Source: a virus. Taken from it: a DNA stretch of 28,359 nucleotides. The stretch spans positions 1 to 28,359 of IMG/VR virus record IMGVR_UViG_3300043410_000112; one strand, written 5' to 3'. This document shows, piece after piece, positions 24,674 through 26,295 of this stretch. Every line of letters begins with the position of its first letter. Positions within the stretch are counted from its first letter, which is position 1. Position numbers and translations under genes: made by a program. The notes beneath the pieces are model-generated. The model was not told where the DNA came from. It saw only the letters and a list, made by a program, of their open reading frames with translations, and ran no database searches.

Positions 24674-24919
24674 ATGAAACTAAAACTATCAGATTCAGCA
24701 ATCATAGATTTGCTGGGGGGATCAACAAAAGTCGCTAAACTTGCAGGGGTTACGCCTAATGCTGTATCAATGTGGCGTAAAAACAACATTCCTTACGAAA
24801 AATTTGTAATATTGGCTGCCACGCTTGAACGTGAATCGCATGGTCTAGTGACTCGTAAAGATATATTTCCTCAATCTTGGCATTTAATTTGGCCAGAACT
24901 ACAAGAAAATGAATGGTAA
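24674..24919 (+). CDS. Cro-like helix-turn-helix regulator
   Basis: The 81-residue product has a Cro/YdaS-type DNA-binding domain: DLLGGSTKVAKLAGVTPNAV (first and second helices), then SMWRKNNIPYEKFVILAATLE. The end, TRKDIFPQSWHLIWPEL, is typical of phage Cro-like and YdaS-like proteins. It probably binds the two GTAAG-type operators beside it and controls both early promoters. I choose the ATG at 24674, not an in-frame TTG at 24638, because the promoter -10 overlaps the longer version. There is no SD, which fits leaderless translation. Only this regulator is seen; a partner repressor may lie outside the window. Confidence 0.85.
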   Translation: MKLKLSDSAIIDLLGGSTKVAKLAGVTPNAVSMWRKNNIPYEKFVILAATLERESHGLVTRKDIFPQSWHLIWPELQENEW

Positions 24920-25077
24920 TGACACGAGAACAAATGCTTATCAAAATGCTAGAACGAGCAGATCAAGAAATACGAGATTTGCAGCACAAAACTGAGTTTT
25001 TAACGAAAGAGCTTAACCAGCTTAGAGAACGATTGAATTACATGGATCATCAAGTATTTGGTGGAACAACGAAGTAA
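24919..25077 (+). CDS. 52-residue coiled-coil protein
   Basis: The start overlaps the Cro-like stop in TAATG. The product is a charged coiled coil (MTREQMLIKMLERADQEIRD, then FLTKELNQLRERLNYM) with a short tail. It is too short for a recognised domain. Coupling to the regulator suggests early expression. It may be a partner of a DNA-binding or host protein. Confidence 0.6.
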   Translation: MTREQMLIKMLERADQEIRDLQHKTEFLTKELNQLRERLNYMDHQVFGGTTK

Positions 25078-25094
25078 ATTTGTAGTAAAATCTA

Positions 25095-25163
25095 TGGACA
25101 GGCTAGGGTCATTCCCGAAAAGTCGCTTTATCACCGACCTGCCAAGTCCACCTTTAGTGATAA
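25095..25163 (+). ncRNA. Structured leader or small RNA (element B), possible pseudoknot
   Basis: TGGAC-GGC-GGTC (25095-25110) pairs with GACC-GCC-GTCCA (25136-25150), with small bulges. Loop segment TTATCAC (25128-25134) is complementary over 7 bp to GTGATAA (25157-25163), downstream of the stem. This could be an H-type pseudoknot or an alternative fold. A TAAAAT -10-like hexamer lies at 25086-25091, so the RNA could begin at the stem; no good -35 is seen. It ends 10 nt before the SD of the GIY-YIG gene. Confidence 0.5.
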
Positions 25164-25184
25164 CCTTTGATAGAGGAACAAACT

Positions 25185-25541
25185 GTGCATTATTACCCCC
25201 ATGAAATAGGTGATATTGAAGCTAATGCAAGGCTTCATAAGCTACCTATGACTTATGTTTTAAGAACAAACAATTTTGAATTCATCAAGATTGGATATGC
25301 AAAATCAATAAAACAAAGAATGTCAAACATTCAAAACGGTTGCCCATTTAAATTATTTTTTTGGCTCGGTATTTACAGTCCTCGTTATGTTGAGATTGAA
25401 AAATATTTACATACAAAATTTGATCATTGTAGGTATCGTGGCGAATGGTTTACGCCACTTCCAGATGATTTAGATGAATTATTAATATTTTTTGAAAATA
25501 CTAACAAACACATAAGAGAGGTGCAAAATGCACTACTATAA
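25185..25541 (+). CDS. GIY-YIG (T5orf172 / MUG113-like) protein with DUF1376-like N-terminus
   Basis: The 118-residue product starts at a GTG 6 nt after GAGGAA; a TTG 18 nt earlier has no SD. Residues about 23-89 form a GIY-YIG-type nuclease core of the T5orf172 kind: TYVLRT, FIKIGYAKSIKQRMSNIQNG (Arg45), IYSPRYVEIEKYLHTKF (Glu70) and YRGEWF. The first 18 residues, MHYYPHEIGDIEANARL, read like the start of DUF1376 replication proteins. The next gene is a real DUF1376 protein beginning MHYYKKNIGDY. It may be a mobile endonuclease fused to a borrowed start, or a joint replication/recombination factor. It overlaps the next gene by 14 nt. Confidence 0.75.
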   Translation: MHYYPHEIGDIEANARLHKLPMTYVLRTNNFEFIKIGYAKSIKQRMSNIQNGCPFKLFFWLGIYSPRYVEIEKYLHTKFDHCRYRGEWFTPLPDDLDELLIFFENTNKHIREVQNALL

Positions 25542-26295
25542 AAAAAATATTGGGGATTATGCTAAAAAAACAGGCAGATTGTCTATGTTGCAGCATGGGG
25601 CTTACACGCTTTTAATTGATTCTTGTTATGACCGTGAAAAATTCCCTACATTAGAAGAAGCTATTGAATGGTCTTGGGCAATTACAAAAGACGAAATTGA
25701 TGCAGTTGAATTTGTTTTAAAACGATTTTTTACGTTTGAAAATGGTGTTTATGTTCAATCTAGAATTCAAGAAGAAATTATTGAATATCACAGCAAAGCC
25801 AATAAAAACAAGGAAATTGCCATACAAAGAGAGGCAAAACGTAGAGGTGAAAGCACAAAACGTGAACGAATCGTAAACGAAACCCCACCTAACCAAGAAC
25901 CAATAACCAATAACCATAAACCAAAGATAATTACACCTGAAGGTGTTTCTGAATCTTTGTTTAAAGATTATTTAGAAGTTCGCAAAGGCAAGAAAGCCAA
26001 GTGGACAGAAACAGCTTACAAAGGATTACAAAGAGAAGCTGATAAAGCTAAAATGACTCTTTCAGAAGTAATGCAAATGTGTTGCGAAAGGGGTTGGGTT
26101 GGATTTAAAGCTGAATGGGTCAAAGAAGAAGCCATTAAACAGAAACAGTTACCTCTGGCTACAAACGAACAGATTGAAGAAGCTTACAGAGTGGAATGTG
26201 GTAAAGACCCAAAACTAGCTCGTTTTGGAAGCTATTACGAAATGCGAGAATATGTCATTAAACAGAGGGAATTGCGATTCAGAACACAGGCATAG
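25528..26295 (+). CDS. DUF1376 (YdaU-like) replication protein
   Basis: The 255-residue product starts after GAGAGG with MHYYKKNIGDYAKKTGRL, LSMLQHGAYTLLIDSCYD and KFPTLEEAIEWSW, the DUF1376 domain (about 1-90). Such proteins are replication-initiation or loader-type factors in phages. Residues about 90-135 are a polar linker. Residues about 145-205 carry a helical module (AYKGLQREADKAKMTLSEVM, ERGWVGFKAEWV) often attached to DUF1376. No helicase motif is present. It is the likely replication gene of the right early arm. Confidence 0.82.
   Translation: MHYYKKNIGDYAKKTGRLSMLQHGAYTLLIDSCYDREKFPTLEEAIEWSWAITKDEIDAVEFVLKRFFTFENGVYVQSRIQEEIIEYHSKANKNKEIAIQREAKRRGESTKRERIVNETPPNQEPITNNHKPKIITPEGVSESLFKDYLEVRKGKKAKWTETAYKGLQREADKAKMTLSEVMQMCCERGWVGFKAEWVKEEAIKQKQLPLATNEQIEEAYRVECGKDPKLARFGSYYEMREYVIKQRELRFRTQA

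Follow-up and report, generated by a model that had tools for sequence, protein, structure and literature searches.

In the IncI/IncB-type repZ leader, a hairpin loop pairs with a site beside the Shine-Dalgarno sequence (SD) of the replication gene and controls its translation; the pseudoknot so formed is the activating structure and is blocked by an antisense RNA. The leader described here, which precedes a GIY-YIG gene in a viral sequence of 28,359 nt (the window, meaning the whole stretch of DNA analyzed), shares with repZ, as a comparison from general background, an upstream hairpin loop predicted to pair next to an SD, whereas no sign of an antisense RNA is seen here and, among its relatives, many of the downstream genes are of other kinds than replication genes. 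Its closest catalogued counterpart is the Rfam family int-alpA (RF02996), typed there as a phage "sRNA" with function not assigned; in the literature searched, the name was met only as a table entry. IsrK of Salmonella Gifsy-1 is a phage leader and small RNA with its own promoter that pairs with the ribosome-binding site (RBS) region of the downstream ORF, has two exclusive structures, and controls a phage gene, while the P4 CI RNA has two pairing sites, seqA and seqC (both according to the available part of PMC4825925). The present leader resembles IsrK in its candidate pairing at a downstream RBS, its two exclusive structures and its presumed control of a phage gene. It differs in that most int-alpA-type copies have no terminator after the leader, and in that the description of IsrK in that part of PMC4825925 contains no three-way junction presenting a loop to two downstream partners in succession. 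The C4 (P1/P7) and CI (P4) RNAs are likewise small structured phage RNAs complementary to sites in the same transcript; in phage P4, however, one site precedes CI and the other follows it, the processed RNA acting in trans, whereas both sites considered here lie directly 3′ of the element.

An Rfam scan of the window at gathering cut-offs gave no match. A permissive scan of positions 24900-25300 aligned the int-alpA model in full length (model positions 1-71) to 25096-25163 with a score of 22.1 bits (E 0.023), against a gathering cut-off of 35.8 bits for this family; the P1/P2/P3 junction with its conserved junction strands is present in that alignment. The only other matches in this region up to E 10 were two weak snoRNA matches, with none to IsrK or C4. 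Relatives with the same architecture as the window pass the cut-off (L011, L015, L047, L041, L062, L009 and L123) and score 38-73 bits on int-alpA, the P22-like phage BIS08P22 (L123) reaching 38.5 bits. Judged by these comparisons, the window leader is a variant of the catalogued int-alpA RNA type, one that itself misses the formal Rfam cut-off passed by its same-architecture relatives. Shared with the family are the three-way junction, the conserved CUAG, CGAAAAG and CCUG segments, and a phage or prophage context. In contrast, the structure line of the match carries no pseudoknot, the model stops at copy 1 and does not reach copy 2 or the SD (features are collected in Table 1), and most relatives gathered here stand before DUF1376-like genes. 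No int or alpA gene adjoins the leader in the window, an expectation drawn from the family name alone; its immediate neighbors are a YdaS/Cro-like gene, a small ORF, the GIY-YIG gene, and a DUF1376 gene. A BLAST search of the whole intergenic region against phages returned short matches only, these being the int-alpA core. Two other identities were dropped, namely a self-cleaving ribozyme, for which there was no Rfam match to a known class, and a tRNA-like tail after P1 (CCCACC), which is not conserved.

Table 1. Features of the leader and of the genes behind it, in window coordinates
Feature	Position	Strand	Remarks
-10-like hexamer TAAAAT	25086..25091	+	Predicted start ~25096-25098, at the 5′ end of P1; position conserved across relatives
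Three-way-junction domain (P1, P2, P3)	25095..25150	+	int-alpA alignment, pair counts, model R1
P1a	25095-25099/25146-25150	+	TGGAC with GTCCA, confirmed by reading the letters
P1b	25101-25103/25141-25143	+	GGC with GCC, confirmed by reading the letters
Junction strands	UA 25104-25105; GAAAA 25117-25121; CU 25139-25140	+	
P2	25106-25108/25114-25116	+	Hairpin of the conserved fold
P3	25122-25125/25135-25138	+	Hairpin of the conserved fold, with L3 as its loop
L3, loop of P3, CTTTATCAC	25126..25134	+	25128-25134 complementary to copy 1; 25126-25133 complementary to copy 2
Copy 1, GTGATAA, putative pseudoknot partner of L3, flush with P3	25157..25163	+	7/7 pairs, covariation, change in L323
P4, weak hairpin CCUUUGAUAGAGG containing copy 2 and SD	25164..25176	+	-2.5 kcal/mol
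Copy 2, TGATAGAG, second L3 complement overlapping the SD	25168..25175	+	8 pairs including one G-U; contains most of the SD
SD AGAGG	25172..25176	+	For the GTG start at 25185
GIY-YIG ORF (MUG113/T5orf172), GTG start	25185..25541	+	Directly behind the leader
DUF1376 replication-region gene	25528..26295	+	Usual gene behind the leader in relatives

Read 5′ to 3′, the leader consists of P1a, an internal loop, GGC:GCC, UA, P2, GAAAA, P3 with L3, and CU. A bulged stem of about 13 bp had been proposed from the letters of this region; its P1a and P1b pairs stand, but its inner part (25106-25110 with 25136-25140) is not conserved and gives way to the P2 and P3 hairpins. Folded as a single sequence, the window leader is not significant (z = 0.16 and -0.20), so that the case for it rests wholly on comparison. 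A strict pattern derived from the core matched at least 120 viral stretches, with the same layout in nearly all of the matches listed. A second pattern, scanned over genome contigs, was too loose: the majority of its matches fail to form the motif, and the set was cut down to those having P3 and a CCTG-like closing. Since copies were found by pattern and P3 pairing was required in part of the parsing of relatives, conservation of the core letters and of P3 pairing is partly by construction. Pairs were counted in an alignment of 32 relatives (A1), in which copy 1 was placed by best fit to L3, after exclusion of four entries whose placement was doubtful. Standard pairs fill 98.1% of the pair cells of A1, compared with 83.4% after shuffling and 28-60% when partners are slid. 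P1, P2 and P3 co-vary, and L3 always lies within the P3 loop. The model built here (R1) matches the window at 25095-25151, the window being part of its training set. That the fold arose by chance might be argued from the single-sequence z-scores near 0, yet all comparative tests speak against it and refute it, leaving it a negligible probability; on this comparative evidence, the folded RNA before the GIY-YIG gene is real.

The putative pseudoknot joins L3 to copy 1, the end of which lies about 9 nt 5′ of the SD AGAGG in the window. The segment TTATCAC of L3 is, by reading of the letters, fully complementary to GTGATAA, as had been noted in the sequence-only reading, which had also asked for compensatory changes. 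Such changes were found: in A1, the L3:copy 1 helix is 96.4% paired, with double substitutions in four of its seven pairs. Among 87 non-redundant relatives, the best duplex between L3 and the downstream sequence averaged 15.2, as opposed to 10.6 with permuted loops, a value reached by none of 300 permutations; for 15 copies from bacterial genomes, a few of which overlap the first set, the best duplex scored 15.4 versus 11.7, reached by none of 500. The bias introduced into A1 by the best-fit placement of copy 1 is absent from these permutation tests because permuted loops are given equal freedom. In the Rfam consensus of int-alpA, moreover, the loop CCuUua and the tail uaAgGG look complementary, suggesting that the pseudoknot, though unmarked in the Rfam structure line, is probably a feature of the whole family. 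The same repeats might instead be read at the DNA level, TTATCAC, GTGATAA and TGATAG being operator sites for a repressor and the RNA fold incidental, given that three related 7-mers lie at most 50 bp from a promoter-like site. This reading is very improbable: it is opposed by the covariation of the three stems and the constant position of L3 inside the P3 loop, by the variation of the repeat sequence among copies of one genome (G004, below), and by the presence of the element also between structural genes, where no -10 is seen.

Nearly every copy holds a second complement of L3 (copy 2), which lies a few nucleotides 3′ of copy 1 and either at the SD or immediately before it; this element is missing from the sequence-only reading. 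Both copy 1 and copy 2 are present in nearly all of ~100 distinct relatives. The second duplex scored 12.7 compared with 8.4 for permuted loops, and 14.0 compared with 9.6 in the second set (genome copies), with no permutation reaching either value. Individual pairs of phages show the same dependence. The near-identical phage L323 differs from the window mainly in the loop, copy 1, and copy 2, which are changed together; in L323/L324, which are close to the window over the YdaS-like gene and almost exact over the GIY-YIG gene, L3 reads TAGTCAC in place of TTATCAC, copy 1 TTGACTG in place of GTGATAA, and copy 2 TTGACAG in place of TTGATAG. Likewise, L415 and L416 are near-identical over the element and differ in one L3 base (C versus T; ACCCTTTCA versus ATCCTTTCA), and copy 2 differs to match it (GAAAGGGA versus GAAAGGAT), copy 1 being unchanged. 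These results bear on the alternative of a constitutive structured 5′ leader that protects the mRNA or tunes ribosome access without switching, in which the second complement would simply be SD-like sequence. The position of P1 at the predicted 5′ end and the often anti-SD-like L3 of GC-rich copies fit such a leader, but copy 2 follows L3 far better than it follows permuted loops, and does so also in AT-rich copies whose L3 is no anti-SD; together with the concerted changes and the junction bases kept before unrelated genes, this makes a constitutive leader distinctly unlikely.

The two complements are not equivalent. The last nucleotide of L3 is paired by copy 1 in 81 of 91 copies and by copy 2 in 24 of 91, suggesting that copy 1 is able to stack on P3 and that copy 2 fits there less cleanly. 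For the reach of copy 2 into the 5′ part of L3, 469 of 500 permutations were at least as good, in a design that holds many entries at zero and is biased against a positive result. The P4 stem scores 11.1 family-wide compared with 9.0 after shuffling and is individually significant in 21 of 93 copies, and P4 as a universal SD-sequestering hairpin was on that account dropped to an optional feature.

Because the same loop bases would be used, L3:copy 1 and L3:copy 2 exclude each other. Two mutually exclusive pairings, one of them with the SD, are what a translational switch of the riboswitch type would have, and both are present here at the level of sequence. The suggestion of two exclusive folds made at the outset thus looks right as to exclusivity, but the competing pair consists of L3:copy 1 and L3:copy 2 at the SD, not of the two helices then named. 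The reading favored here, held with somewhat more belief than doubt, is that of a cis-acting int-alpA-type leader that governs how the phage gene behind it is translated through the choice between pseudoknot and loop:SD pairing. By sequence comparison, the three-way junction displays L3, which is complementary to two successive downstream sites, first copy 1 and then copy 2. With junction and pseudoknot formed, L3 would be locked on copy 1 and the SD left free (presumably the ON state); with L3 on copy 2, the SD region would be occluded and, copy 2 being at the SD, ribosome binding should be blocked (presumably OFF). The kept junction bases UA, GAAAA and CU may be the site at which a ligand, a protein or a co-transcriptional event biases the choice; their retention before unrelated genes suggests that the junction senses or binds something shared.

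Transcription of the leader from its own start was considered next to this cis-acting switch. A -10-like hexamer (at least 5 of 6 matches) stands 14-17 nt before P1b in 42 of 85 copies, the four offsets summed, against 0-3 per offset elsewhere, and with this spacing transcription is predicted to begin at the 5′ end of P1. No full sigma-70 promoter was called in the window itself, where the -35 is poor. The idea of a small RNA starting at TAAAAT consequently draws family-level support from the -10 box in about half of the relatives, and meets a weak -35 and the lack of a called promoter in the window. It leads to the main competitor, a mainly trans-acting small RNA of the IsrK, P1/P7 C4 or P4 CI type, in which an RNA of ~65-75 nt would be made or processed here and its L3 seed would bind copy 1 or copy 2 in further transcripts from this operon and set their translation or termination. 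Besides the start predicted at P1, the typing of int-alpA as an sRNA in Rfam agrees with it, and the IsrK locus, in the part of PMC4825925 available, shows a leader acting both in cis and in trans. In L015 (9100-9213, minus strand), L026 and L041 (4463-4566), a terminator-like hairpin separates copy 1 from copy 2, which fits a released small RNA and counts against a purely cis reading. On the other hand, no intrinsic terminator was found near the element in the window, most copies likewise having none after copy 1, and the window region has no Rfam match to IsrK or C4. The Methylomonas genome G004 contains four int-alpA-type leaders (L432-L435) before different genes, with three different L3 loops that each match their own downstream sites, which favors action in cis. 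A predominantly trans-acting RNA is accordingly considered unlikely, though a more serious contender than the constitutive leader.

The position of the element is the same before very different genes. In 55 of 87 copies, no more than 20 nt separate the stop codon of the upstream gene from P1b, and a start codon follows ~40 nt past P1 in nearly all copies. The proteins encoded downstream fall into ~40 unrelated groups, of which the largest (55 of 105) comprises mainly DUF1376-like replication-region proteins, others including HNH, NUMOD4, and AntA. Among named phages, the element precedes a tail assembly chaperone gene in St162 and hypothetical genes in BIS08P22, CGphi29, and P7869. An earlier proposal of control specific to the endonuclease proved too narrow, the same leader standing before some 40 unrelated gene families. 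The int-alpA-type leader is widespread among phages: with R1, 32 of 299 genomes sampled from the phylum of G004 proved to carry the element, and the P22-like version is present in 54 of 5,426 E. coli genomes. For a family catalogued without known function, a covarying pseudoknot, a second complement of its loop at the SD, and constant placement ahead of diverse phage genes point to a gene-control device that can be tested. A broader proposal, offered tentatively and with more doubt than belief, is that int-alpA-type RNAs form a large, previously unrecognized class of phage translational switches, possibly riboswitches, in which the junction would sense a signal common to many proteobacterial hosts and the loop, free to vary, would in each instance be fitted to a decoy as well as to the start site of the gene that follows, as in a portable regulatory cassette. 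If the junction does sense a general signal, it would illustrate how a single RNA-based decision can govern different phage genes.

In this phage, the gene directly behind the leader seems to have been inserted. The GIY-YIG ORF begins with VHYYPHEIGDI, which resembles the start of DUF1376 proteins behind the leader in relatives (e.g., MHYYQHHIGDF in L087), and it is followed by the window's own DUF1376 gene; the GIY-YIG gene seems to have entered between the leader and that gene, taking the leader over. A recombination boundary also seems to lie at the leader. In L323, a different stretch of ~840 nt (1960-2797) takes the place of the window's 52-aa ORF in the interval from the YdaS/Cro-like gene to the leader (24902-25077 in the window). 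Finally, L331, L334, L340, L359, L362, and L373 carry, upstream of DUF1376 genes, variants in which P2 is long (e.g., GGCTAGGTATGAAGTCATGAGCATACCGAAAAG) and P3 short; these fall outside model R1, and their L3 complements seem to be kept.
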